Shown here: piece after piece, positions 1 to 12,196 of the stretch | Layout: every line of letters starts with the position of its first letter | Numbering within the stretch: position 1 is the stretch's first letter | DNA from: Anaerolineae bacterium | Lineage (GTDB): Bacteria > Chloroflexota > Anaerolineae > Aggregatilineales > Phototrophicaceae | DNA length: 47,540 nt | Assembly: GCA_025454525.1 (NCBI GenBank) | Contig: JALOOG010000021.1 | Span: 1 to 47,540 of the forward strand | Direction of reading: 5' to 3' | Position numbers and translations under genes: made by a program | The notes under the pieces: generated by a model | The model's database searches: none | What the model was told of the DNA's origin: nothing | The model's input: the letters and a program-made list of their open reading frames with translations, nothing else

Positions 1-65
1 TTTCTGCCGCCGCACTATTTGATCGATGAAACGTTAAAATTTGCTTAGGTATAAAATCAGAATCG

Positions 66-74
66 TGCTATAAT
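66..74 (+). promoter_or_regulatory. Extended -10 promoter for the reverse transcriptase gene
   Basis: A TGn extension followed by a perfect TATAAT hexamer lies at 66-74, about 30 nt before the ATG at 104. No good -35 is present at 17 nt, as is usual for extended -10 promoters. The predicted transcript would start near 81 and carry the AGAAAGG ribosome binding site at 91-97. This suggests the gene has its own housekeeping-type promoter. Confidence 0.5.
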
Positions 75-103
75 CAGAACTAAAGTTCTAAGAAAGGTCG
101 CCG

Positions 104-2518
104 ATGTTCAGAGAGAATCAGAACTTTATCACCCGTACCAAGTTAGCCGAATTACGCCGTCAACGTAGCCGCTTACGCGAAGAATACAGTGTGCTTCGGG
201 AAAAAGTCACCGAGATCGAAGGCTTGCCCGAACAATTGCAACATCTCTATCAAGGGTTACAGACGATCGCCTTTGCCCGTCAACCCCTCCATCCTGACAT
301 CCAAAATCTGGATTTACTCTTTGGATCAAAAGAATTAGCATCAGAAGAAGTTCTTCGCTTTTGGTTAGATCAATTGCAACGTGAGTTACAACTGGGTCAA
401 CAGCGCGCCGAATATGTGTACATTTTTGGTGCATTATTGGATCAATGGATTTCAGAACCCACCCCCGCGCCGACCGAAAACCCAGAAGTTGCCATGATCC
501 GCGAACAACTTTTGACTCAAGCGCAAACGCCACCCATCGAGACGACTCTGCCCGATTGGGTACAGGCCTTACTCATCCCGTTTGAGCAACGCCCCAAAGA
601 CGCACTCAAAGAACAAGATGAACAAATTCAGACCACTTTATCGCAACCGATCACACCGGAATTGATCTCCGGCACGCTCAAAGCGATCAAAAACGACATT
701 TATCGCCCAGTGAGTTTACGTCGTCAAGCAGCGGAATTTCTTGAAAATGAGATGTGGATGAAGGAATTGGCTGATGCGCTCACCATTTTGATCGATCATC
801 TAGACGAATGGGACTGGGATCAAGCGGGGATCGGATCGCAAATTGTGTGGACGCGCAACAAGTGGCGATTGTTTTTGGATGAAGATCTCGCAACGGCCTG
901 TTTATTGCATGTGTTAGGGGTGCGTTGGCAAGGCGTGATCGATTCGATCTACGATCATCAGAAGTTGATCCGGTTGATGCACGCGCAAACCCTACAACAC
1001 TATGGCGCGCCACAACTGATCGTGGATCATGAAGGCAAATTGAAAAAAACGAGCCTGATGTGGTTGCCTTTGGTTAACGTCTGGGAGAAATTTGATCTCC
1101 TGACTCCTGAAGATCAACTTGATCCCAAAAAGCTTCAACGTCCGATTGATTACCATTCGATCGCTTATCAACGCAATCAACATCAAAAAGAATTGCGGGA
1201 TATGTCCCATTGGGAGATGTACACCGGCGCACAAAACGACGCGGGCAGCATGGAAAAATTAGTGACCTTTGTCAATGCAGAAGTCCAAACCATGCGCGGC
1301 GCACTCCCAGACCAACCGTTGTATGTGGTCAAGTTGGATCTGAAAGATTTTTATCCGTCGATCCCGCATCACTTGATCCTCGTGATCCTCAAAAGCATCG
1401 GATTGCCACAAGAACATCTCACCTTTTTTGAGCGTTACTTGCGTGTACCGTTGTTATTGAAACGTGATCAGGCCCCGGTTATCACCCAACGCGGGATCTC
1501 AAACGATCATCTCTTGTCGCATGTCTTGGGGGAAATGGTCTTACGTTTAATGGATCAGCATGTGCGAAATCAAGCACAAGTACAGATCATCCGCTTGGTA
1601 GACGATATTTGTCTGATTGGTGACTCCCCAGAAGCGATCGTCAAGGCATGGCAAGCGGCGTTAGCGTTTTGCGACGGGTGTGGACTAGCGATCAACTTAG
1701 AAAAATCCGGTGCAGTGTGTATCGGCGGGGACTTGCCCTCGCAATTGCCTCAAACAGCGCCCACATGGATGTTATTACAGCTTAACCCAGATGCGACTTG
1801 GACAGTCAACACCGAACGTTTTAACGCGCATCTAGAGCAGACCCGCGCCGCACTTCAACGCGCCCCTTCGATCATCTCACGGGTGACGATCTACAATGCG
1901 AATCTCAATTATCTCTTACGGGCGATCGGCGTGGTAGCGCCTTTAGGCGATCAACATCGTGTCAGTGTCAATCAAGCGGTCATCCAATTTCATACGCGCT
2001 TTGACGGGCAAGCGATTACCGAACAATTACGCGCACTGATTCGGCGCGAATTTGACTCAACGGTGGAGATCCCCGAAGCGTGGTTATATTGGCCGATCAC
2101 CGCCGGAGGCTTGGGTTTGATCCAACCCTTGATCGATGAAGGCATGAGTGCCAAAAGCTATCGTGAACGTTTGATTCTCGAAGTCCCCAATGAACGCACA
2201 GATGATTGGCTCTATCGGAATAACCTTTGGTCAGCCTATTACGCAAATTTTTTCAACTTAGTCACCTTACACAAACCGGAAAAAACCCAAGTAATGGAGA
2301 CCTTGGTAGATGATTTTATCCAACGTGGTTCGACAATCACTGCCGGCCGTCAAAAAGACTTAGGGGCCTATTGGCGGTGGATTTTGTATTTGTATGGGCC
2401 GAAGATCTTGGATTACTTTGGCACTTTCCGCTTTTTGATCACAGAGTTAGTGCCTGTGCAGTTGATCAGTGAGCGCCGTATGGGTGACACTTCGCTCACG
2501 GGTGAGACCGGATTTTAA
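104..2518 (+). CDS. Reverse transcriptase, rvt-like cellular type
   Basis: This 804-residue protein has a polymerase palm in its second half. Motif A is LDLKDFYPSI with D412, motif B is QRGISND near 462-468, motif C is RLVDD with D500 and D501, and motif D is GLAINLEKSG near 527-536. All three catalytic aspartates are present. The N-terminal 50 residues are charged and heptad-like, consistent with a coiled coil, and 50-400 is a long region resembling no intron maturase, retron or DGR domain. The R-L-x-D-D context of motif C, the following W...F...GL.lN..K.G pattern and a C-terminal GGLGL motif (in AGGLGLIQP) match, from memory, the rvt family: single-copy cellular RTs of fungi and a few bacteria, including the chloroflexote Herpetosiphon. 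There is no maturase or endonuclease domain. The gene stands alone, with an ATG preceded by AGAAAGG. It shows the same GATC enrichment as the chromosome, so it is probably long resident. RT: high confidence; rvt assignment: moderate. Confidence 0.85.
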   Translation: MFRENQNFITRTKLAELRRQRSRLREEYSVLREKVTEIEGLPEQLQHLYQGLQTIAFARQPLHPDIQNLDLLFGSKELASEEVLRFWLDQLQRELQLGQQRAEYVYIFGALLDQWISEPTPAPTENPEVAMIREQLLTQAQTPPIETTLPDWVQALLIPFEQRPKDALKEQDEQIQTTLSQPITPELISGTLKAIKNDIYRPVSLRRQAAEFLENEMWMKELADALTILIDHLDEWDWDQAGIGSQIVWTRNKWRLFLDEDLATACLLHVLGVRWQGVIDSIYDHQKLIRLMHAQTLQHYGAPQLIVDHEGKLKKTSLMWLPLVNVWEKFDLLTPEDQLDPKKLQRPIDYHSIAYQRNQHQKELRDMSHWEMYTGAQNDAGSMEKLVTFVNAEVQTMRGALPDQPLYVVKLDLKDFYPSIPHHLILVILKSIGLPQEHLTFFERYLRVPLLLKRDQAPVITQRGISNDHLLSHVLGEMVLRLMDQHVRNQAQVQIIRLVDDICLIGDSPEAIVKAWQAALAFCDGCGLAINLEKSGAVCIGGDLPSQLPQTAPTWMLLQLNPDATWTVNTERFNAHLEQTRAALQRAPSIISRVTIYNANLNYLLRAIGVVAPLGDQHRVSVNQAVIQFHTRFDGQAITEQLRALIRREFDSTVEIPEAWLYWPITAGGLGLIQPLIDEGMSAKSYRERLILEVPNERTDDWLYRNNLWSAYYANFFNLVTLHKPEKTQVMETLVDDFIQRGSTITAGRQKDLGAYWRWILYLYGPKILDYFGTFRFLITELVPVQLISERRMGDTSLTGETGF

Positions 2519-2524
2519 CTAAGA

Positions 2525-2550
2525 GGGGCGCATCACGCGCCCCACGTTTT
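2525..2550 (+). terminator. Hairpin terminator after the reverse transcriptase
   Basis: The arms GGGGCGC (2525-2531) and GCGCCCC (2537-2543) enclose a 5-nt loop and are followed by ACGTTTT. It starts 7 nt after the stop codon at 2518. It lies between convergent genes, so it may also stop minus-strand transcription. Confidence 0.65.
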
Positions 2551-2610
2551 AACGCTGATATGGAGAATGTGATTGCCAACGTTCACCGGCCGCGATCACC
2601 CGTTCGCGGA

Positions 2611-3609
2611 TCACCGATCCGTGGCCGAGATGTCGCAGGGCAAGGTGACACCCGGTAGCGAGGCAAACGCTAGGTTCGCCGCTCGCCCGATTCCGGTTTC
2701 CAACAATCCACCGATCCATAAAGGGACTTGATGTTGGACACAGACCTGATAGATCTTGAGGCTTTCGGTGTATCCACCGACCCGTGCGGGTTTGAGATTG
2801 ATGATCCGACAAGCCCCTAATTCGATCGCCATGCGGGTATCATTCGCGGTGTGAATGCTCTCATCCAGACAAATCGCGGTGGTCAATTGCGGTTGCAATT
2901 TGCTATGTTCATAGATGTCATCCGCCCCTAGCGGTTGTTCCAACATCAACAGGTTAAATTGATCCAATTGACGCAAGTGATCACTATCATGCAGACGATA
3001 GGCGCTATTCGCATCTAACATCAATTGGATCTCCGGGTAAACTGCGCGCACCCGTCGTGCCAATTCGACATCCCAACCGGGTTCGATCTTCAACTTGATC
3101 CGCCCATATCCTTGTTCTAAGCGTTTAGTGATGATCTCTAAAGTCGCTTCGATCGTGTCTTGCATCCCGATGCTGACCCCCACTAACGCGCTCCCTTTAG
3201 GGGTATTGCCTTCTGGCAGATGTAAAGCGAACGCTTCGGCCAAGGGCAGATCATTAGCTTTAGCCAATGCGTCCCATACGGCAGCTTCAACCGCGTATTT
3301 GGCCATCGGATGACCGCGATACGCTTTGAGTAACACCGGAATTTCGGTGGGCGTGGTGATCGTCTTACCGATCAATTTAGGGATAAAAAATTCGTTGAGT
3401 ACATGAAGCGCGGTTCCCATCGTCTCATAGGTGTAACTGGGTTTCATCTTGGTGGGGCATTCTCCCCAACCGATCACACCATGCGAGGTGATCAATTCGA
3501 CGATCACAGCAGATTTAAAGGGTTCTGCACCATAGGAGGTACGGAGTTTTTCGGCCAATTCAAGCCCGATCGGATGAAGGTGAATTGCTTCAATGGTAAT
3601 AGGCTGCAT
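2611..3609 (-). CDS. menC: o-Succinylbenzoate synthase / N-acylamino acid racemase (enolase superfamily), C-terminally short
   Basis: The protein belongs to the MenC/N-succinylamino acid racemase group of the enolase superfamily. The barrel residues are visible: the KLKIEPGWD motif (acid/base Lys pair), LMLDANSAY and MLEQPL (metal ligands), CLDESI (third ligand) and NLKPARVGG (second catalytic Lys), then GGLLETGIGRAANLA. Family members run about 365-375 residues and continue after the D-[IT]-S-A-[ST]-x-R motif for 40 or so residues that pack against the capping domain. Here translation stops directly after DISATDR, at residue 332, so that tail is missing. The start has an AAAGGATC ribosome binding site and lies 10 nt after the UV endonuclease gene, so the two are probably co-transcribed. 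Sequence alone cannot separate menaquinone synthesis from amino acid racemisation. No other men gene is in the window, and a GNAT acyltransferase lies nearby, which favours the racemase role. Confidence 0.8.
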   Translation of the reverse strand: MQPITIEAIHLHPIGLELAEKLRTSYGAEPFKSAVIVELITSHGVIGWGECPTKMKPSYTYETMGTALHVLNEFFIPKLIGKTITTPTEIPVLLKAYRGHPMAKYAVEAAVWDALAKANDLPLAEAFALHLPEGNTPKGSALVGVSIGMQDTIEATLEIITKRLEQGYGRIKLKIEPGWDVELARRVRAVYPEIQLMLDANSAYRLHDSDHLRQLDQFNLLMLEQPLGADDIYEHSKLQPQLTTAICLDESIHTANDTRMAIELGACRIINLKPARVGGYTESLKIYQVCVQHQVPLWIGGLLETGIGRAANLAFASLPGVTLPCDISATDR

Positions 3610-3619
3610 GAAAGATCCT

Positions 3620-4513
3620 TTAAGTTTTGGGTTGTTCCTGTAAGTAAGCTAACGCGGGTAAGACACTTTGTTCTTTGTCTTTGATCTCAATCATGATGTC
3701 AATATCATACCCATACCCGTCCACTTGGTTCAGAAAATCGACAAAATGGGCGAGATCGATCGTTTCGCGATGCGTGCCGATGCGTTTACCGGGTGCTTGA
3801 CTACTATAATCGACCATGGGGAGACCGTCCGTGCTTGACCAAGTTTTACAAGCGCGTTCAAATCCCTCTCCTAACGATTCCCCGTTATTTAACAGCTCAT
3901 GATGTAAGTTATCAAATACAATCGGAATGCCGATCGCCTCATGAATCCGAACACAATCCCCCACACTATACAAGCGATCATCATTTTCGATCACCAACCG
4001 GCGTTGAACAGCGGCCGGCAAATCGCGATAGCGCTGTATAAAGCGGGTGATACTCGCATCTTTATCATTATAGACCCCACCGACATGGATCTGCACCTTA
4101 TGGGTTGCATCTATGCCCATGAGATCCAGCAATTCGGTTTGATAGATCAATTCGGCGATCGTATTTTGAAGAACGCGCTCATCAGGGGAGTTGATCAGGG
4201 TGTATTGACCCGGATGAAGCGCGAATCGCATCCCATATTGACGGGCAAACGCGCCGATCTTGGCAAATTGATCGTGAAAACGGTTTTGCCAAGGCAATTG
4301 ACACACCGGATGAGAGGCAAATGGCACGATCTCCGAGGCCAAACGGAAATACAAGATCCGATGTTGCTGATTGTAGGCTAAGGTATTCAGCAAACAGATC
4401 AAATTATTGCCAAGGGTATCATAGAACCGTTCTTCGCTAAACGATGCTAAACGAAAGGTCTTGGCACTGGTGCAACCAAGACCGTTATTGACTGTGGGAT
4501 AACCGATACGCAT
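3620..4513 (-). CDS. uvsE: UV damage endonuclease UvsE/UVDE
   Basis: This TIM-barrel endonuclease nicks DNA 5' of UV photoproducts and some other lesions, starting an excision pathway independent of UvrABC. The sequence begins MRIGYPTVNNGLGC, the family N-terminus. It contains RLASEIVPFASHP, ALHPGQYTLINSP, HVGGVYNDK, RLVIENDD, PIVFDNLHH and GTHRETID, which supply the His/Glu/Asp metal ligands. The ATG at 4513 is chosen over an upstream ATG at 4543 because AAGGA sits 9 nt before it and homology begins there. That gives 297 residues, the usual length. It lies 10 nt before menC, downstream of the acyltransferase gene on the same strand. Confidence 0.9.
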   Translation of the reverse strand: MRIGYPTVNNGLGCTSAKTFRLASFSEERFYDTLGNNLICLLNTLAYNQQHRILYFRLASEIVPFASHPVCQLPWQNRFHDQFAKIGAFARQYGMRFALHPGQYTLINSPDERVLQNTIAELIYQTELLDLMGIDATHKVQIHVGGVYNDKDASITRFIQRYRDLPAAVQRRLVIENDDRLYSVGDCVRIHEAIGIPIVFDNLHHELLNNGESLGEGFERACKTWSSTDGLPMVDYSSQAPGKRIGTHRETIDLAHFVDFLNQVDGYGYDIDIMIEIKDKEQSVLPALAYLQEQPKT

Positions 4514-4611
4514 GAGTGTGTCCTTTTTTATCATTTTTATCATGAATGCTTAGCCCACACTGAATTAGAGCTAAAAAGGACAGCAAAATCGGGCATTTTA
4601 TCCCGATGAGA

Positions 4612-5511
4612 TCAGTTCAAGCTAAAGTCAAAACCCATGTTGTAACTAAGCAGATAGAAGGCGCGACTCCGCCCCTCATATTCTTCATGTAAAAAGTCCG
4701 TGATCAAGAACCCCTCACGCATCAATTTACGGAGCGTCTCACGCATGTGACCTTGCCACACTTGCGCTAAGGCCGGCGTAACTTGCAAGATCAGATCATA
4801 ATTGGTTGGGATTTCGACAAGGGCAAATGCGCCTTGTGGCTCTTGAATGTCCGCCATAGGTGAGATAAAACGTTCATCTTCGGTGATCTTGACCGGATTC
4901 ACTAAGGTCGCATTTCCTTCCAGATATTGACGGAGGGTGAGATCTGGACGACTACCGCTGATACGTTCTTCAACCCGACGATTCGTGACCCACCAATCGA
5001 CATGGAGGCGATCCGACCATCCAAATTGCGCCAATCCGCTACGATCGTGTGTGCCATACAGGTTATTATGATAGCGTTGGCACACCCCGCCCAATTTGCG
5101 AAGGTTGAGATGAGCGTTATTGGAGCGCAACGGATCGAATGTCCATGTTACCAAGCGCACCCCTTGTTGGATCGCTTTTTCGCGTTGTGCCAATTTGAGT
5201 CGATACCCGATCCCGGTGCCGCGATGACTGGGGGCAACCACCATCCGCTTAGAGGCGATCAACAGATTGGCCATAGCGGGGCGTTGTTTTTCTTCAATGT
5301 TGGTGCCAAGCAAGCCGATCAAAACCCCGACCATTTGATCCCCGTCTTTTGCAGCCAAGACATGCCCGCCGGATGAGGCGATCGTAAATAGCATGTGCGC
5401 GGGGACGACCGACTCAAGGTCATTGCCCCAATAAGTGCGCTGTAATTCAACGGCCTCATACATCGCATCCAGCGTTTCTAGCGGATGAATTTCAATTGTT
5501 GAATTTGTCAT
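4612..5511 (-). CDS. GNAT-family acyltransferase (COG3375-like)
   Basis: A GNAT fold is indicated by residues 1-150, with the acetyl-CoA loop in MVVAPSHRGTGIGYRLKLAQRE (R/Q-x-x-G-x-G/A type, about residues 90-111) and a following TFDPLRSNNAHLNLRKLGG segment. The remainder, including the DRLHVDWWV motif, is typical of the COG3375 group. I recall members of this group beside N-succinylamino acid racemase genes, where a GNAT enzyme succinylates D-amino acids. That role is inferred from the racemase two genes downstream and is not proven. The start has AAAGGA upstream. The gene begins 27 nt after the SDR gene, suggesting one transcript for SDR, GNAT, uvsE and menC. Confidence 0.75.
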   Translation of the reverse strand: MTNSTIEIHPLETLDAMYEAVELQRTYWGNDLESVVPAHMLFTIASSGGHVLAAKDGDQMVGVLIGLLGTNIEEKQRPAMANLLIASKRMVVAPSHRGTGIGYRLKLAQREKAIQQGVRLVTWTFDPLRSNNAHLNLRKLGGVCQRYHNNLYGTHDRSGLAQFGWSDRLHVDWWVTNRRVEERISGSRPDLTLRQYLEGNATLVNPVKITEDERFISPMADIQEPQGAFALVEIPTNYDLILQVTPALAQVWQGHMRETLRKLMREGFLITDFLHEEYEGRSRAFYLLSYNMGFDFSLN

Positions 5512-5538
5512 TTTATCGATCCTTTCGTGTGTTTTAGG

Positions 5539-6492
5539 CTAATCCTCGCGAGGTTTGCGGCGCAAAACATACCCCAACGAGGAGAGTAAAAAGCGCTTCT
5601 TTGGTAAATAGGTGAGCAGGGTATCCTCAAAGCGCTTGGGTTGCACACCAAAATACTCATAGATGTTACCGATTCGGGCGGTACGATTTTCTGCTAACAG
5701 ATCTAACCATTGGGGAGTCATCAACGAGCGCGGCAAGATCCGACTATAGATCGCGGTTGACCAACGCATCAGGTAGGGGGGTACCGAGAGTAAAAATCGA
5801 TGCTTACCCGTAACACGCATGATCGTGCGGAGCATATCCTCAAATGAGGTATATTCCGCGCCACCAATTTCGAGCGTTTGATCGATCGTATCTAAGCGAT
5901 CAAGCGTTGCTATGGCCGCGGTGATCAAATCATCGATATAGATCGGATGCAAGAGAATCTCACCTTGTCCGGGGACAAGAAAAAACAGCGGATTGAGCGA
6001 GAGCATCATACCGATATGATTCACAAATGCATCTTCCGGCCCGAAAACGATACCAGACCGAATAATCGTATAAGCAAGCCCCCCCGCCCGCACATTTTCT
6101 TCCACCATACCCTTGATCCGTAACAGGGGATATGCAGATGAAGGTGATGCGCCCAAGTGACTTAGGGTGATGATCCGCCCGACTCGCGCTGATCGGGCTG
6201 CGGCGATCAAGGTGCGTGTCCCGACTACTTCTACCCGCTCTAAGTTACGGGGACGGCCCCACCATTGTGCGCTATGCAGGTGATAGATCACATGAACACC
6301 ACTGGCAGCTTTGAACAGGGTTTCATCATCTAAGATCGAACCGATCGCCACTTCAGGTAGATTATCTGTCCAAGGTAGCGGACGTTGTGCTTGTTTGGGT
6401 GATAAGAGGACTCGAACGCGGCGATTTTGGCTGAGCAGATGCGCTACCAAATGGCGACCGATGAATCCCGTTGCTCCGGTTACTAGAATCAT
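5539..6492 (-). CDS. Atypical SDR, NAD(P)-dependent epimerase/NDUFA9-like
   Basis: The Rossmann glycine motif VTGATGFIGRH (residues 4-14) is intact. The catalytic YxxxK of classical SDRs is replaced (YPLLRIKGMVEENV), as in atypical SDRs of the NmrA/NDUFA9 type that bind NAD(P)H with or without catalysis. Other features are IIRSGIVFGPED and HPIYIDDLITA, conserved in the extended group. Residues 225-260 are hydrophobic and may contact the membrane. An upstream TTG (6525) extends the frame, but it lies inside the predicted promoter, so the ATG at 6492, where the Rossmann strand begins, is used. It is the first gene of the minus-strand SDR-GNAT-uvsE-menC series. Confidence 0.8.
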   Translation of the reverse strand: MILVTGATGFIGRHLVAHLLSQNRRVRVLLSPKQAQRPLPWTDNLPEVAIGSILDDETLFKAASGVHVIYHLHSAQWWGRPRNLERVEVVGTRTLIAAARSARVGRIITLSHLGASPSSAYPLLRIKGMVEENVRAGGLAYTIIRSGIVFGPEDAFVNHIGMMLSLNPLFFLVPGQGEILLHPIYIDDLITAAIATLDRLDTIDQTLEIGGAEYTSFEDMLRTIMRVTGKHRFLLSVPPYLMRWSTAIYSRILPRSLMTPQWLDLLAENRTARIGNIYEYFGVQPKRFEDTLLTYLPKKRFLLSSLGYVLRRKPRED

Positions 6493-6524
6493 AATCAAAT
6501 CAGATGGATAGATCGTAAATGTCA

Positions 6525-6533
6525 ATTATAACA
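6525..6533 (-). promoter_or_regulatory. Extended -10 promoter for the SDR operon
   Basis: On the minus strand a TGn extension and a perfect TATAAT lie at 6533-6525, about 33 nt before the ATG at 6492. This mirrors the promoter at 66-74. Confidence 0.5.
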
Positions 6534-6555
6534 CGGGGAAGGGGTGATTCGGTGG

Positions 6556-6615
6556 AAAAGAGCGGGGAATTTCAGTAGTCTGCTTGAATCTTGCTTGAAG
6601 ATCTGCCGCTCTTTT
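6556..6615 (-). terminator. Long-loop inverted repeat after the UBP zinc-finger gene
   Basis: AAAAGAGCGG (6556-6565) and CCGCTCTTTT (6606-6615) are perfect 10-nt arms with a 40-nt spacer. They lie between the zinc-finger gene stop and the SDR promoter. On the minus strand the second arm ends in TTTT, so this could terminate the zinc-finger transcript. The long loop makes that uncertain. Confidence 0.4.
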
Positions 6616-6630
6616 AATCAAACGTCAAGC

Positions 6631-6906
6631 TTAGAACTGCCCAACAATTTGTTGATCCACATAACACCAAACCCACGACTCGCCCGGTTCATTCGATCGC
6701 ACTAACGGATGTTGGGTGGTGCGGTAATGTTGGGTCGCATGTTTGTTTTTAGAACTATCACAACAACCGACATGACCGCACAACAGACATTGACGGAGAT
6801 GAACCCAAGTGTCACCTGTTTTTATACAATCCTCACAAACATGCGTGCGTGGTTCGACATAAATGAGTTGATCTGCGGTGATGTGTGTACAGGGTGGATT
6901 AGCCAT
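6631..6906 (-). CDS. UBP-type zinc finger protein
   Basis: This 91-residue protein is almost entirely a ZnF-UBP domain. It has a Cys/His near the N-terminus (PPCTHI), CEDC, CLLCGHVGCCD, then HATQH, HYRTTQHPLV and a terminal WCYVD. The spacing of Cys and His pairs matches the fold that in eukaryotes binds the C-terminal GG of ubiquitin. Stand-alone bacterial copies have no established function. No ubiquitin-like, E1-like or JAB gene is in the window. It is divergent from the esterase at 7031 and appears monocistronic. Confidence 0.85.
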   Translation of the reverse strand: MANPPCTHITADQLIYVEPRTHVCEDCIKTGDTWVHLRQCLLCGHVGCCDSSKNKHATQHYRTTQHPLVRSNEPGESWVWCYVDQQIVGQF

Positions 6907-6927
6907 AGTTTATCCAATCGTTAAGTA

Positions 6928-6957
6928 AAATTAGGTTATGGATGAGAGATCTCACAA
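6928..6957 (-). promoter_or_regulatory. Possible promoter for the zinc-finger gene
   Basis: On the minus strand TTGTGA (6957-6952) and TAATTT (6933-6928) are separated by 18 nt, 22 nt before the gene start. Each matches four of six consensus bases. Confidence 0.3.
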
Positions 6958-7030
6958 CTTATTGATCGCTAAAGAACACCGACATCTTTTCCCCTATACA
7001 CTAAGTTTATCAGGGAGGCGAAGGTGAACT

Positions 7031-7933
7031 ATGGCGAGTGTACAAGGGTATTTAGCACGACAAGTCATTCATCGGATGTTTGCAAACGTCGATTTTAAAT
7101 CACCTGTCGAGATTCAACGGCAACAGGCCGCACAAAGCTGGAAAAATTATACTGTTCCCAAAGGTGTCCAGATCACACCGATCCACATCGGTTCAATCGC
7201 TGCGGAATGGGTGCGTCCCGTTCATGCCACGCAAAAATGCGCGATCTTGTATCTGCATGGAGGCGGTTTTTATATGGGTTTGTATAACTCACACCGTCAA
7301 ATGGTGACGCGGATCGCACAAAACGTCAATGTCCCGATTTTGATGATCGATTATCGTTTAGCGCCAGAACACCCATTTCCCGCAGCGCTAGAGGACACGA
7401 TCACCGCTTACCATTATCTACTCGATCAAGGTTATGCGCCGCATCAAATCATGATTATGGGTGACTCCGCAGGCGGTAACTTGACGCTTAGCGCCTTGCT
7501 AAAATTGAAGGATCAAGGCGATCCCTTGCCCGCAGCGGCCGCAGCCCTTTCCGGTGTGTTTGAACTTTCCGGTAATCTAGACGGTTGGTTGCCGTTAGCA
7601 CGACTTGATCCGATCTTACGCGGCTCATTGTTGGAATTTATCCATGAGTCATATATCGGCGACCACGATCCGCTCTCACCGTTGATCTCACCCTTGTATG
7701 GAGATTTACGGGGATTACCGCCGCTCTTGCTTCATGCTGGGACGCACGAAGTATTGTTGTATGACGCGCAAGAATTGGCACGACGCGCCGATGCAGCCGG
7801 AGTCAACGTGCAATTAGAGATCTGGAAAGGCATGTGGCATGTTTTCCAGATATGCGTCGGTTATGTGCCGGAAGCCACCCGCGCCATTCACAAGATCGGC
7901 ATGTTTGCACGCCAGCATCTTGGCCACGCTTAA
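7031..7933 (+). CDS. Alpha/beta hydrolase, hormone-sensitive lipase family
   Basis: This is a 300-residue carboxylesterase-type hydrolase. The oxyanion motif HGGGF lies near residues 76-80, the nucleophile elbow GDSAGGN near 148-154, and the catalytic His in GMWHVFQ near 280. The acidic residue is probably in HAGTHEVLLYDA. MIDYRLAPEHPFPAALED is a family hallmark. There is no signal peptide, so it is likely cytoplasmic, acting on short acyl esters. A strong GGGAGG-containing ribosome binding site (about 7013-7024) precedes the ATG. Its TAA interlocks with the stop of the convergent VOC gene (shared TTAA at 7930-7933). Confidence 0.88.
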   Translation: MASVQGYLARQVIHRMFANVDFKSPVEIQRQQAAQSWKNYTVPKGVQITPIHIGSIAAEWVRPVHATQKCAILYLHGGGFYMGLYNSHRQMVTRIAQNVNVPILMIDYRLAPEHPFPAALEDTITAYHYLLDQGYAPHQIMIMGDSAGGNLTLSALLKLKDQGDPLPAAAAALSGVFELSGNLDGWLPLARLDPILRGSLLEFIHESYIGDHDPLSPLISPLYGDLRGLPPLLLHAGTHEVLLYDAQELARRADAAGVNVQLEIWKGMWHVFQICVGYVPEATRAIHKIGMFARQHLGHA

Positions 7934-8397
7934 GTCCTTAAGGCAGCCTCCAATTGATCCGCCGTGATCCGACGATTTTCACCATTCCATGTAGGCGTAC
8001 CATGGGGTTCACGGCGCGTATCCCAATAGATCTCTAGACCATTGCCATCAGGATCGTTAAAGTACATCGCCCAACTAATCTGATGATCCACCGCGCCCAC
8101 CTCGATCCCGTCTTGTTGAAGTTGCTGATAGGCTAAGGCAAACGATCGCGCATCCGGCACTTCAAACGCGATATGATACAAACCAACGCTATACGGATGC
8201 GGTTGTGGCGCATTCAGCCCCCGCGCCTGTAGGGCGATCTCATGATGAAACGCACCGCCGGACAAAAACGCATATTGATCGCCGATTTGTTCGATCACCC
8301 GTAGGTTAAAGTAGCGGGTATAAAAAGCGATCGAACGTGCTAGATCACGCACTTTCAGATGTGCGTGTCCAAGCTTGGTATGATAATCAGGCATCAT
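7930..8397 (-). CDS. VOC family protein (glyoxalase/extradiol dioxygenase-like)
   Basis: The 155-residue protein has the paired beta-alpha-beta-beta-beta units of the vicinal oxygen chelate fold. Likely metal ligands are the His in GHAHLKV, the His in LYHIAFEV and the Glu in GNGLEIYWD. It resembles the single-domain form of extradiol dioxygenases such as catechol 2,3-dioxygenase. The substrate is unknown. Two adjacent ATG codons occur at 8397 and 8394; AGGGG lies 2 nt before the first and 5 nt before the second, so the second may be used. The stop interlocks with that of the esterase. Confidence 0.82.
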   Translation of the reverse strand: MMPDYHTKLGHAHLKVRDLARSIAFYTRYFNLRVIEQIGDQYAFLSGGAFHHEIALQARGLNAPQPHPYSVGLYHIAFEVPDARSFALAYQQLQQDGIEVGAVDHQISWAMYFNDPDGNGLEIYWDTRREPHGTPTWNGENRRITADQLEAALRT

Positions 8398-8473
8398 GAC
8401 CCCTAAGTGGATAATCGTAGCACCTGAAGATAGCGTAATAGTCTCTCTGTCAAAAAAGAATTAGAGTTAGATT

Positions 8474-8497
8474 AAAAACGGACTATAGTCCGTTTTT
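8474..8497 (-). terminator. Intrinsic terminator containing the stop codon of the MutS-like gene
   Basis: A perfect 24-nt palindrome has arms AAAAACGGAC and GTCCGTTTTT around a TATA loop. The TAG stop codon of the upstream gene (8485-8483) lies within the loop and arm. The final five T residues give the U-tract on the minus strand. Confidence 0.75.
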
Positions 8498-10126
8498 GAG
8501 ATAAAGATCCCGAATCTGATCTAAGCTAATCCCGCACCGTTTAGCGATCTCCTCCGCATAACTTTTACCCAACGGATCGCGGCGGGTGATCTGATAAGTG
8601 GGGGTGATACTCCCATCTGAGTTCAGATTGACTCCCGCCACAAGGCTGATAAATCGACTTTCGCCTTCGACTCGCCGTTCCATGTCACCGATCCGATCGA
8701 TCAACTCTGCGAGATGTGTCGCATAAATCGCACGCACTCCGATCAAGCGCATCCCGCACAACATATCTTGTGCCAGATAAAGCGCCTCTCCGCTAGACGT
8801 GCTGGCAAACGTTTCATTGAGCAGAATCAAGCTATGCTGGGTGACTTGCTCAAAGATCAGCCGAATCCGTGCGCCTTCTTCTGCTAACCTCCCTTGTTGA
8901 CCGGTCTCCAATTTAGGAAAATGGGTGAAGATCCGATCTACCGGACTCATCCGCGCCTGTTGTGCTGGAATCCATAACCCCGCCTGAAACAAGATTTGAG
9001 CAAGTCCAACACTTTGTAAATACGTCGTTTTCCCGCCGCTATTGATTCCAGTGAGCAATGCGATCCGCCCGTGATCACCCAAACTAACCTGACTTTCGAC
9101 GGGACGTGATTTTAGGCGTAACGCGAGAGGTAAATTAACCAACTGTTCAATCTGCGTTTGACGATTTTCGCTGATCTCCGGTTGACAGAAGGTGATGCCC
9201 TGCGCTTGTAATTGTGTGATCAAGTTGGCAGCACAAAGGTAAAATGCGATCTCATATTCCAACCCGACTAACCCTCGTGTGTTCAATCGCACATAACGAT
9301 CGAGTGCTTTGGCCACTGGTTGTGCCACTTGCGTCAACAACCGATCTAGATCGCTGAACAAGGGATCAAATGGGCGTAAATCAGCTTCTTTGGCAAATTG
9401 ATGTAAAGGGGCAATTCCGCTATCAGTTTGCTCCGATGTCCGCGAACCTATCAAACGGTCTAATAACGAAAGCGGCTCACCTAATTGATGTTCGTTCACT
9501 GCCAATAAAACGGCTGACTCTGGACGGAGTTGAATGTCGAGATTGATCCCAACGGTGACGCTGTTGATATTTTCAAAAGGTGCGCGTAACAGCGGTAGAT
9601 CTTCGCGCAATGCCTGATAGTTGGGATCGCCTAACAACGTTTGCAGGTGATCTCGTAGCACGATCAACGCCTCCGATCGCAATTCGATCGATTGTAGGGC
9701 TGATGAAAACGCCTCAACCGCGGTGATATACAGGTCTAACTCAGCTAATCGATCAGATGTTTCTAGCAACAAACCGCGCCGATGTTGACCTAACTGTACA
9801 CTGCCTTGACGTAGACTCGCTAGGCGAGGTAACAGAATTTGCGCGGCCTGAATCAGCGTCGGATTGCGGATAAAATCGCCTAAGATTGCTTGTCGCCACC
9901 GGATCACTTGTGGATCAGTAACCAGATTCATCAACACTTGACGGATAAAACCGCTATAGCGCCGTTGATCGGTGAAGGCGGCGATCACTTCGCTCAAACC
10001 GAGATCGATCTCCCACGTTTGCGGTAACGGATCAATCAACGGATCGGCAAGCCCTAATAGGCTAATGGGTGGGAGACGCAATTCACTGCGGATTTTCGGA
10101 CGATTGGGGAGTGTCGGTCGTTTCAT
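8483..10126 (-). CDS. MutS-like ATPase (MutS domain III/V only)
   Basis: The C-terminal half is a MutS-type ABC ATPase. Walker A is TGINSGGKTTYLQ, the signature region reads GQQGRLAEEGARI, Walker B reads LILLNETFAST, and the H-loop is AIYATHLAEL. Walker B has Asn where canonical MutS has Asp (LLNE instead of LLDE), a change I recall in several MutS-related subfamilies. The N-terminal mismatch-recognition domain I with its Phe-x-Glu motif is absent; residues 60-300 are helical, like the MutS lever. At 547 residues it lacks the Smr nuclease tail of MutS2. It is best described as an uncharacterised MutS-related protein and may act in recombination or branched DNA metabolism. It is divergent from the YchJ-like gene, and its stop codon lies in its own terminator. 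Confidence 0.8.
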   Translation of the reverse strand: MKRPTLPNRPKIRSELRLPPISLLGLADPLIDPLPQTWEIDLGLSEVIAAFTDQRRYSGFIRQVLMNLVTDPQVIRWRQAILGDFIRNPTLIQAAQILLPRLASLRQGSVQLGQHRRGLLLETSDRLAELDLYITAVEAFSSALQSIELRSEALIVLRDHLQTLLGDPNYQALREDLPLLRAPFENINSVTVGINLDIQLRPESAVLLAVNEHQLGEPLSLLDRLIGSRTSEQTDSGIAPLHQFAKEADLRPFDPLFSDLDRLLTQVAQPVAKALDRYVRLNTRGLVGLEYEIAFYLCAANLITQLQAQGITFCQPEISENRQTQIEQLVNLPLALRLKSRPVESQVSLGDHGRIALLTGINSGGKTTYLQSVGLAQILFQAGLWIPAQQARMSPVDRIFTHFPKLETGQQGRLAEEGARIRLIFEQVTQHSLILLNETFASTSSGEALYLAQDMLCGMRLIGVRAIYATHLAELIDRIGDMERRVEGESRFISLVAGVNLNSDGSITPTYQITRRDPLGKSYAEEIAKRCGISLDQIRDLYLKNGL

Positions 10127-10184: not shown

Positions 10185-10595
10185 GTGAACACAAAAATCA
10201 ACCCAAAATCAAAATGCCTGTGTCATAGTGGTGATGAATATCAAGCCTGTTGTCGTCCGTATCATCGGGGTGAGGCATTACCTCCAACACCGGAAAAATT
10301 GATGCGATCGCGTTATGCGGCCTATGCGCTCAATTTAGCCGATTATTTGATCCTCACGACGCATCCTGATAGCCCCTATCAGCAAGATCCCAAGACATGG
10401 CGCGAGTCGATCCGCAAATTTTATCAAAAGACGCGCTTTGCTGACTTACAGATTCTTGATGCAGAGGCAAACACCGTGACATTTTACGCGATCTTATTTG
10501 AGGAGGATCAAGACGTGTCATATATCGAACAAAGCCTCTTTCGACAACATGAAGGCCGTTGGAAGTATGTTTCTGGCAAGCGGTTAGGAGGTTAA
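10185..10595 (+). CDS. YchJ/UPF0225-like SEC-C motif protein
   Basis: A small SEC-C-like zinc-binding motif at the N-terminus (CLCHSG then CC) is followed by an NTF2-like domain with the family pattern EKLMRSRYAAYAL and W..YV.GK at the end. It is about 136 residues, close to YchJ family length. An ATG at 10173 is in frame but has no ribosome binding site; AGAGG at 10176-10180 precedes the GTG at 10185, so GTG is preferred. The function is unknown; SEC-C motifs often bind zinc and partner proteins. Its TAA interlocks with the stop of the HEPN gene in a shared GTTAAC. Confidence 0.8.
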   Translation: MNTKINPKSKCLCHSGDEYQACCRPYHRGEALPPTPEKLMRSRYAAYALNLADYLILTTHPDSPYQQDPKTWRESIRKFYQKTRFADLQILDAEANTVTFYAILFEEDQDVSYIEQSLFRQHEGRWKYVSGKRLGG

Positions 10596-11071
10596 CGAGT
10601 GCATTGATCATCGATGAAGGTGATCAATGTTTTAATGGTTTGGTAATTGTTCTTAAGTGTGCCATAAGTTACATTATCCAGCTCACCATGCGCGATCTTG
10701 TTGCGTTTATCAATCACATAGTCTAATGCAATTTTGAACTGCTCAAAATTTGATGCTTTTTCAATTTCTTCACGCCATTGCGCGCTAAAACTGCCCGCAA
10801 GGGTTAAGACTTTTTGCATTTTAGGGTTTTGAAACCCTTCCAATTGTTGGCTAACGTAATTGGCAACTTTAGATGTTGATCGTCTAATGGCGTAATCGGT
10901 GTAAATTTCAATCAGGGCAAATTCGACAAACCCAGAGACTAAAACACATAAATACCGAGACCAATGCGCCTTGATTTCCTCCGCTTCAGGAGATTTTAGC
11001 TGATTGAATACCTCAAATTTTTTAAACAAATTATCAAGGCGATTTTGATGGCTGCGAACATTGGTATTCAT
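10592..11071 (-). CDS. HEPN domain protein (MAE_28990/MAE_18760-like), putative RNase
   Basis: This 159-residue all-helical protein carries the HEPN catalytic signature R-x4-H in DKRNKIAHG (R123 and H128). HEPN proteins with this motif are typically metal-independent RNases of toxin and defence systems. Length and context match the MAE_28990/MAE_18760-like group, which I recall as frequent partners of DUF262 proteins. It starts 5 nt after the DUF262 stop, so the two are one operon. The DNA is visibly more AT-rich than its neighbours and poor in GATC, suggesting acquisition. RNase activity and toxicity are inferred. Confidence 0.75.
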   Translation of the reverse strand: MNTNVRSHQNRLDNLFKKFEVFNQLKSPEAEEIKAHWSRYLCVLVSGFVEFALIEIYTDYAIRRSTSKVANYVSQQLEGFQNPKMQKVLTLAGSFSAQWREEIEKASNFEQFKIALDYVIDKRNKIAHGELDNVTYGTLKNNYQTIKTLITFIDDQCTR

Positions 11072-11076
11072 TTTGT

Positions 11077-12144
11077 TTAATCAATATTTTCAAATGCCGC
11101 AGTAGCAAGCCTTAAACGTGTGCTTAAGGTATCTTGACGAGAAGTAGCGCCGCCAGTTGCTTTTAAGAAAGTGTCATTTTTCAAGAGTTCATGGTAATTG
11201 GCTTTAAGTTGATCACAATCTTGAATTGGGCCTTTCTCTAAACGCCGCGCTATTCCCACCATAATACTGTCGAATACAGCGACATTAAACGTCGTAGACC
11301 GCTTAAAAGCCCTTTCACCCAAACAATCATGAATCGTTTGAATCGTCGTGGTAAATCGTTCGGTTAATTCTTGTTCAGATTGTAAGGTTAAACGGCGATT
11401 TTGAGACATATAGCGGTTAAGGAAGGTCTCTATTGGATAGGTATAATCCTTTGAGTAGTAATATAAAGCAAAAAAGCGTAAAATGGCCTCTTCATCATTT
11501 TTCCTAGGATGTTCCTCTTGATTCTTGATATAAAGCTTACGCCAAAGCGCAAATTTGTTTAACCGACCGAGTAAATCATTAAACTCCCCGCGATAAATGG
11601 CAGAGCGAATTTCTTGAGGGCGCAGCGCTACCGCACCAGTATTCAAGCGTCTAAACACAAAATAAATCCCACTATCATCATCGGTAGGACTTTCTTGTTT
11701 GATGACCGTGGCCGGCATAAACGCATTGTCTAACCGCCGCCGATCGTTCGGGTTTAATTGAGAGTAAGTTTTACCCTCAAATTGGGATTGTACATGCGAT
11801 AGAGGGAGTTCATCCTTGTAAAATCTGGCTAGGCTTTGAATACGTTGTAATCCGTCAACGACCAATAAAACTTCATCTGAGTCCGATTTTGAGAGAAAAA
11901 CTCCCGGTACCGGTAATCCTAACAGCAGGGTTTCCACAAATTGAGAGGCACGACGATCATCCCACACATAGTTACGTTGAAAATCTGGGATAATAATATC
12001 GCCATTTTTGTAGCGACGCACTAGCCCGGCGACATCAAAATCAATGGTATAGCTGGAAACATCATATTGAAAAGTTAATGTTTCTTCATCACCAAGCTGA
12101 TCGATTTCAGCGGTATTGTTGTCTTCAAGCATTTCTTGACTCAT
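11077..12144 (-). CDS. DUF262 (ParB/Srx-fold, GmrS-like) domain protein
   Basis: DUF262 is a ParB/sulfiredoxin-fold domain found in modification-dependent defence proteins such as GmrSD and SspE, where it binds or hydrolyses nucleotides. The motifs are clear: IPDFQRNYVWDD (Q56, R57 from the chosen start) and VVDGLQRIQSL (D97, G98, Q100, R101). No C-terminal HNH domain (DUF1524) follows; the last 150 residues are helical and unrecognised, so any nuclease activity would come from the adjacent HEPN protein. The ATG at 12144 has AGGAA upstream, unlike the GTG at 12180. It lies directly after the terminator of the response regulator operon. The pair at 10592-12144 looks like a self-contained defence or toxin-antitoxin-like unit. 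Confidence 0.8.
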   Translation of the reverse strand: MSQEMLEDNNTAEIDQLGDEETLTFQYDVSSYTIDFDVAGLVRRYKNGDIIIPDFQRNYVWDDRRASQFVETLLLGLPVPGVFLSKSDSDEVLLVVDGLQRIQSLARFYKDELPLSHVQSQFEGKTYSQLNPNDRRRLDNAFMPATVIKQESPTDDDSGIYFVFRRLNTGAVALRPQEIRSAIYRGEFNDLLGRLNKFALWRKLYIKNQEEHPRKNDEEAILRFFALYYYSKDYTYPIETFLNRYMSQNRRLTLQSEQELTERFTTTIQTIHDCLGERAFKRSTTFNVAVFDSIMVGIARRLEKGPIQDCDQLKANYHELLKNDTFLKATGGATSRQDTLSTRLRLATAAFENID

Positions 12145-12163
12145 GGGAATCGTTCCTACTTTA

Positions 12164-12196
12164 GACAAAATTAGGCGCACACCTCGCGCCTAATTT
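12164..12196 (-). terminator. Intrinsic terminator of the roadblock/V4R/response regulator operon
   Basis: Perfect 11-nt arms AAATTAGGCGC (12168-12178) and GCGCCTAATTT (12186-12196) enclose a 7-nt loop. On the minus strand the hairpin runs into TTTTGTC. It sits 29 nt after the response regulator stop and just before the DUF262 gene, so it insulates the two. Confidence 0.7.

Follow-up and report, generated by a model that had tools for sequence, protein, structure and literature searches.

Genes of the rvt family have been described as the sole group of reverse transcriptases (RTs) present in bacteria and eukaryotes alike, and as carrying a large insertion (loop 2a) that separates RT motifs 2 and 3 (PMC5718144). 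Seven RVT genes were aligned with LINE and Prp8 proteins in an earlier paper (PMC5678591). One meeting report credits rvt with non-templated polymerisation, states that the catalytic residues are required for stress relief and describes rvt genes as an aid to bacteria, fungi and rotifers that are starved of amino acids or exposed to antibiotics (PMC10680173). Another presents the N. crassa RVT as induced on inhibition of protein synthesis, non-essential and possessing terminal transferase activity (PMC3520738), and where PMC12632851 deals with tyrosine-primed RTs it cites a 2018 paper on the products of bacterial rvt. Here we analyse a gene of this type at positions 104-2518 (+ strand) of a 47,540-nucleotide stretch of an Anaerolineae draft genome (GCA_025454525.1, contig JALOOG010000021.1; hereafter the window). 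We think it probable that its product is a chromosomal, single-gene bacterial rvt protein, filed in the PADLOC database as RT_UG37, which would act as a stress-linked, oligomeric, protein-primed and largely non-templated polymerase, a mechanism that we infer from published rvt work. The family, its presence in bacteria and its stress role are already in print; what this study adds is a further host lineage and the linking of rvt with UG37.

The coding sequence (104..2518, ATG start, 804 amino acids) was defined from its open reading frame (ORF), from Pfam and PADLOC matches and from a genome search, and is the only copy found in the host's 5.24-Mb draft genome, which holds three further RVT_1 genes. 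The ORF is real, single-copy and has an intact catalytic site. Pfam recognized the palm alone (RVT_1, residues 403-539, E 3.8e-13). Invariance was judged on an alignment of 11 proteins, the window protein and 10 relatives, in which the three catalytic aspartates reported in an earlier note on this DNA are present throughout: D412 (1337-1339) within motif A (1319..1363), and D500 and D501 (1601-1606) in the RLVDD hairpin of motif C (1583..1621). The motif B region, residues 464-490 (1493..1573), was located from the alignment and the structural model. Two further motifs noted earlier also hold across the alignment, namely the GL.lN..K.G of motif D (G527, L528, N531, K534 and G536; 1682..1711) and the late GGLGL (G668, G669 and G671). 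As had been claimed, the gene comes without the usual partners of other bacterial RTs. A domain scan of the protein found no maturase or endonuclease and no Cas domain, Rfam was empty across window positions 1-6000 with no retron msr/msd-like RNA, and the three direct-repeat pairs in positions 1-8500 (20-29 nt, 72-85% identity) are unlike the template and variable repeats of a diversity-generating retroelement (DGR); no inverted repeat pairs were reported in the same 8500 bases. An assignment to group II intron, retron or DGR RTs was rejected, as UG37 is separate from these at 99/99 in the tree described below and the matching domains, RNA families and repeats are all missing at the window.

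The PADLOC profile RT_UG37 matched the window protein at 829 bits (E 6.8e-250), over residues 1-793 of 804 and profile positions 1-773 of 778. The runners-up, which aligned with the RT domain, scored 37-50 bits (UG17/DRT10, second at 50 bits, then UG36, Drt3a, UG19 and Drt9). All 11 relatives scanned matched RT_UG37; telomerase (E at least 0.015) and Class 2 UG profiles matched no better than did group II RTs. In Herpetosiphon aurantiacus DSM 785 (CP000875.1) a single UG37 match was obtained at E 0.001, with 1,234 bits, and this protein is the only RT of that genome with a frame of about 800 amino acids. The remaining H. aurantiacus RTs comprise five distinct proteins, three of group II type with maturase/HNH domains, one of 608 amino acids with an uninterrupted RVT_1 and one of 431 amino acids. 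Yushenova and Arkhipova reportedly described, in 2018, the bacterial rvt of H. aurantiacus (HaRVT). We take the CP000875.1 UG37 protein to be this HaRVT, by elimination among the RTs of that genome, and therefore regard rvt and UG37 as two names for one bacterial family. Judged by title, a literature search for UG37 gave nothing on bacterial RTs and one for HaRVT gave no relevant paper using the name; a connection between rvt and UG37 was not met in the literature searched. The earlier note had proposed a free-standing, rvt-like cellular RT, and this is borne out by the full-length Herpetosiphon relative, a clade of its own, an insertion between motifs 2 and A, the C-terminal tyrosines and the lack of an adjacent partner shared across lineages. 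It had also opposed rvt to the UG groups. The rvt half of that statement stands, but the contrast does not, as the UG37 profile is the rvt family itself; for the same reason its suggestion that clustering with UG RTs would refute an rvt assignment becomes a question of names.

All 11 UG37 rows came together (99/99), on a long stem, in a tree of the palm domains of 33 RTs, and the rvt/UG37 clade is separate from the other RTs sampled. The label 'GIIlike' is borne by 17 rows of this tree; PADLOC was run on eight of them, and four cluster with a DGR RT. UG37 and UG19 were joined at just 39/65, with a long-branch warning; the position of UG37 relative to other RTs cannot be read from the tree, whose deep forks have bootstrap values of 20-39 and in which long branches meet. 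In a second tree, built over the full length of 14 rvt proteins and rooted by choice on the two actinobacterial ones, the window protein falls with those from Chloroflexota (100/100), its neighbours being two Ktedonobacterial copies (85/85).

An AlphaFold2 model of the whole protein (pLDDT 73.4, pTM 0.75) starts with a long N-terminal helix and a helical extension; the fingers hairpin, an insertion and the palm come next, and the thumb and C-terminal region, again helical, close the chain. An N-terminal coiled coil is a trait of rvt proteins, and the one proposed earlier for the window protein was recovered: the model has a helix at residues 4-36, and the heptad score is 0.78 from residue 11, a value reached in 1 of 300 shuffles of the first 75 residues (heptad/coiled-coil region, residues 11-38, 134..217). 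The helical N-terminal extension (residues 64-231, 293..796) follows in the model. A hairpin with the invariant pair W254-R255 (residues 243-258, 830..877) is, on our reading of model and alignment, the probable equivalent of motif 1/2 in the fingers. After the motif 2 helix and ahead of motif A, the model has an insertion of about 120 residues (284-405, 953..1318), placed by model and spacing at the position of the rvt '2a' loop. From the motif-2 arginine to the motif-A aspartate there are 157 residues in the window protein vs 63 in group II-type RTs (six RTs measurable among 22 tried), about 90 residues being inserted, and the corresponding R255-D412 spacing is 150-166 residues in 10 of the 11 proteins; the Virgisporangium rvt (L047 9989-12241) has a spacing of 94 and is missing about 60 residues of the insertion. 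The thumb and C-terminal helical region (1811..2515), delimited by alignment, model and structure comparison, contains W660/W663, the GG.G motif and invariant tyrosines. Three of these, Tyr713 (2240..2242), Tyr756 (2369..2371) and Tyr764 (2393..2395), are candidate protein-priming residues by analogy with published rvt proteins. The final 90 or so residues were modelled at low confidence and, folded separately, the C-terminal part (pLDDT 61.5) gave no usable structural match, the best Z-score being 6.7.

Among the genomes examined, rvt is found only in some Chloroflexota and in two Micromonosporaceae. A scan of species genomes with two peptide patterns, which is not exhaustive, gave 44 stretches, 13 of them confirmed, at 11 distinct loci: four Herpetosiphon species, a Herpetosiphonaceae metagenome-assembled genome (MAG), two Ktedonobacteria plus a fragment, a Chloroflexi MAG and two Micromonosporaceae. 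The Chloroflexi MAG locus falls in the same class as Dictyobacter in the taxonomy used, and its contig is that of genome G196. Across the phylum a full-length rvt was found in 10 of 301 genomes, the window's own included (14 with any match). Within the window's class the only full-length copy among 298 genomes is the window's own; the other 36 of the 37 genomes with any match reached at most 48 bits, in the RT domain. The class of G124 had full-length copies in 4 of 47 genomes and any match in 15, G265 and G228 carrying fragments, and in the Ktedonobacterial genome G569 (L090 8854-9726) rvt is broken by four stop codons and lacks an internal part. In the Herpetosiphon family, seven of nine genomes have a full-length rvt, the two misses being 75-76% complete. 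In the phylum of Catellatospora, at E 1e-20, the only hit among 396 genomes was the query genome itself, and its family gave 2 of 250. A phage, plasmid or viral origin was rejected: rvt had zero matches in viral contigs and phages, and the four weak plasmid matches were group II introns at 25% identity.

The rvt traits of a single copy outside mobile elements are both present here, and conservation of place and selection were examined in Herpetosiphon, where rvt is syntenic and under purifying selection (dN/dS 0.07-0.15 in 15 pairs from six genomes). Residence in the window's own genome can be judged from GATC, which occurs at 16.7 per kb in the window, 4.3 times the expectation from base composition (3.9), and at 12-18 per kb in parts of three further contigs from this genome, with 0.2-5.7 per kb in stretches of two relatives of the same family. 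The host-like GATC density noted earlier is stronger than had been claimed, at 19.5 per kb in the gene and 2.8-9.0 in the genes of 10 relatives. That the gene fully shares this excess suggests long residence in the genome and a correctly binned contig.

Neighbouring genes were compared as ORFs of at least 90 amino acids in the first 20 kb of the window, with the upstream contig added in a second comparison. No gene adjoining rvt is shared across lineages outside Herpetosiphon. Three families recur in more than one lineage, none of them closer to rvt than 3.8 kb, and were taken as common families: an alpha/beta-hydrolase-type gene occurs near rvt in the window, L040 and L086, and L038/L090 and L086/L090 have one shared pair each. 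The distance from the end of hisG (L041 8947-9972 and equivalents) to the rvt gene behind it is 28-29 bp in each of the six Herpetosiphon genomes examined, a spacing that suggests co-transcription with this histidine biosynthesis gene. Downstream of the window rvt lie ordinary genes of the enolase-superfamily, UvdE, GNAT and epimerase types. The window begins at a contig edge, and its first 53 bases are identical to the last 53 of contig C113 of the same genome; the join places divergent genes that we named fabF- and fabH-like upstream, separated from rvt by 512 bases. A perfect, operator-like palindrome, CGTAACATTTGTTACG, stands between a divergent fabF-like gene and rvt at L104 7714-7729.

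The native promoter proposed by the earlier note was not recovered. A promoter scan was empty in window positions 1-2700, where 2.7 hits were expected in shuffles, and also upstream, and a TATAAT at 69-74 has no well-spaced -35. The proposed terminator survives in part: a GC hairpin follows the stop codon between convergent genes (2525..2543, + strand; terminator scan and folding) and is a possible terminator, but the scan lists it for the minus strand only and its plus-strand T-tail is short. The 92 bases behind rvt fold better than shuffles (z -2.98, 2/200), 309 bases of the 512-bp upstream region fold like shuffles (z -0.46) and Rfam had no match in the region upstream of the window rvt. 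A 40-amino-acid leader ORF with a Shine-Dalgarno sequence upstream of rvt was set aside: a comparable ORF arose in 57 of 1000 shuffled regions, and none was seen upstream of seven relatives (stretches of 28-491 bases). In Herpetosiphon a non-coding block of about 190 bp behind rvt (L041 12445-12631 and five other genomes) has hardly changed between genomes that differ by 0.25-0.81 at the synonymous sites of rvt. It contains a 10-bp stem (AGGTGATTAA...TTAATCACCT), kept in 6/6 genomes with no covariation, together with a palindrome of LacI type, TGTAAACGTTTACA, consistent with a promoter for the following gene. H. aurantiacus has one copy of the block; it was not found in G070 or in the window's genome, and a profile of it gave nothing outside Herpetosiphon loci among the matches listed, to about E 0.05. 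A single sub-threshold Rfam match to RNase MRP inside the rvt gene of L041 was taken as chance.

We propose that a stress that stalls protein synthesis, such as amino-acid starvation or ribosome-acting antibiotics, would cause rvt to be produced or activated. The protein may oligomerise through its N-terminal helix, use its own C-terminal tyrosine, or another 3' end, as the starting point for DNA synthesis and add nucleotides with no nucleic-acid template, and this untemplated polymerisation would aid survival of the cell under stress. The earlier note had called the role of rvt unknown; that holds only in part, given the stress role and untemplated polymerisation reported in the two meeting reports (PMC10680173, PMC3520738). 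Several observations weigh against the proposal. The hisG linkage fits a stress mechanism but is limited to one genus, and hisG itself has a dN/dS of 0-0.03, so selection on rvt is looser. Absence from nearly all relatives and the broken copies in some Ktedonobacteria mark rvt as dispensable. Most relatives have a weaker heptad pattern (14-23 of 300 shuffles in Herpetosiphon, 42 of 300 in L043), and in several the best heptad stretch is located elsewhere. The identity of the CP000875.1 protein with HaRVT, reached by elimination, counts here as well. Finally, L038 carries a gene for a TIR domain fused to a right-handed beta helix (8385-9917, +) 83 bp upstream of rvt on the same strand, and L039 has a type IIG restriction-modification gene and a PLD/SNF2 helicase gene 4.5-10 kb upstream.

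These last neighbours suit a defence role, and an explanation that we regard as unlikely, though still worth weighing, is that UG37 is a defence-associated RT (DRT), either Abi-like or a polymerase templated by non-coding RNA (ncRNA) and directed against phages, the stress phenotypes being side effects. The filing of RT_UG37 in PADLOC with UG and Drt profiles next in rank, the patchy distribution of rvt and the fact that untemplated protein-primed synthesis is described as the mode of Class 1 Abi RTs (PMC12632851) all point the same way. Of the five loci outside Herpetosiphon that were scanned (10 proteins), two have defence-type genes nearby. On the other side, no PADLOC defence model was matched by the four proteins from L040, L043 and L044 or by the first eight of the 10 window neighbours scanned. 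In Herpetosiphon the nearest three neighbours are by Pfam HisG and, downstream at six loci, an APH-type kinase and a HAD hydrolase, and the presence of rvt at a constant place in 6/6 genomes is unlike a defence-island gene. The poorly supported palm-tree join to UG19 does not help a DRT assignment either. It is somewhat less likely again that both sets of observations have one cause, rvt being a polymerase triggered by translation arrest that unites stress survival with antiphage abortive infection: starvation, antibiotics or phage shut-off would all lead to protein-primed untemplated DNA synthesis, the stress 'rvt' and the 'UG37 DRT' would be the same thing, and the eukaryotic rvt would be a relative or descendant.

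An RNA-templated RT resembling the Class 2 DRTs, with an adjacent or distant ncRNA encoded in the 512-bp upstream region or in the Herpetosiphon 190-bp block, seems to us improbable. The near-constancy of that block against synonymous divergence in rvt and the stem kept in every genome are what such an RNA would predict, but the block is confined to Herpetosiphon, its stem lacks covariation, its palindrome fits the promoter of the next gene and, at the window, the upstream fold is like that of shuffles and Rfam is silent. We give very little credence to the window gene being a functionless relic, a recent import or part of a misbinned contig. It is the sole full-length copy among the 298 genomes drawn from its class and broken copies occur in some Ktedonobacteria, but its 804 codons are intact and it shares the GATC excess of the genome in full. 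Further points against are the exact 53-base overlap with another contig of the genome and a neighbour protein that finds its best outside matches within the same family and order (41-45% identity, 4 of 25 relatives).

Some further RT and defence genes were recorded in the same genome. At 8.6 kb from rvt, a gene resembling NsnA / PD-T4-2_A at window positions 11077-12180 (-), with 10592-11071 (-), scored 232 and 203 bits in PADLOC; with a GC content of 0.41 and 3.6 GATC per kb it is probably a defence gene that entered this GATC-rich genome recently. Also encoded by the genome, on contigs C32, C13 and C207 (L020, L024 and L027), are an RT resembling those of type XIII retrons (450 bits) and two that cluster at 99/99 with the DGR RT of BPP-1.

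The window copy extends rvt to a further class of Chloroflexota, and UG37, an entry in a defence database, is now connected with the literature on rvt, so that predictions on stress and on phage can be tested on one gene. Herpetosiphon is a culturable genus, and all six genomes examined have rvt beside hisG. The H. aurantiacus protein, from a Chloroflexota class other than that of the window host, is 34-35% identical to the window protein over its full length and has the same domain order, catalytic residues and tyrosines; it differs in size (786 amino acids vs 804) and its gene lies behind hisG, whereas that of the window has a divergent fabF-like gene upstream. With RT_UG37 of PADLOC-DB ('DRT') the window protein shares a family and a full-length profile match, but the database name implies a defence function, for which the literature search, judged by title, gave no test. 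In structure, the R2 retrotransposon RT was the top match of the model (8gh6, Z 22.8 over 462 residues at 5.5 Å), residues from about 120 onward superposing on R2 RT structures, and the LINE-1 RT came next (8c8j, Z 17.8), with the caveat that long targets favour a high Z. Further matches were group II (Z 16.9), DRT9 (15.9), DGR (15.3) and DRT2 (14.8) RTs; only R2 and LINE-1 stand out, because viral RNA polymerases (14.7) and the spliceosome chain 6ff4_A (14.4), which we take to be Prp8, follow closely. Identity to the R2 and LINE-1 RTs and Prp8 is 11-14%; the window protein has no endonuclease domain that we could find and is not mobile. The Abi polymerases AbiK, AbiA and AbiP2 (Class 1 UG) are only distantly related in sequence, AbiP2 (7r08) ranking 39th in Foldseek with a TM-score of 0.16 on the query, but rvt resembles them in the untemplated, protein-primed mode of synthesis that is reported for rvt and described for Abi RTs (PMC12632851).

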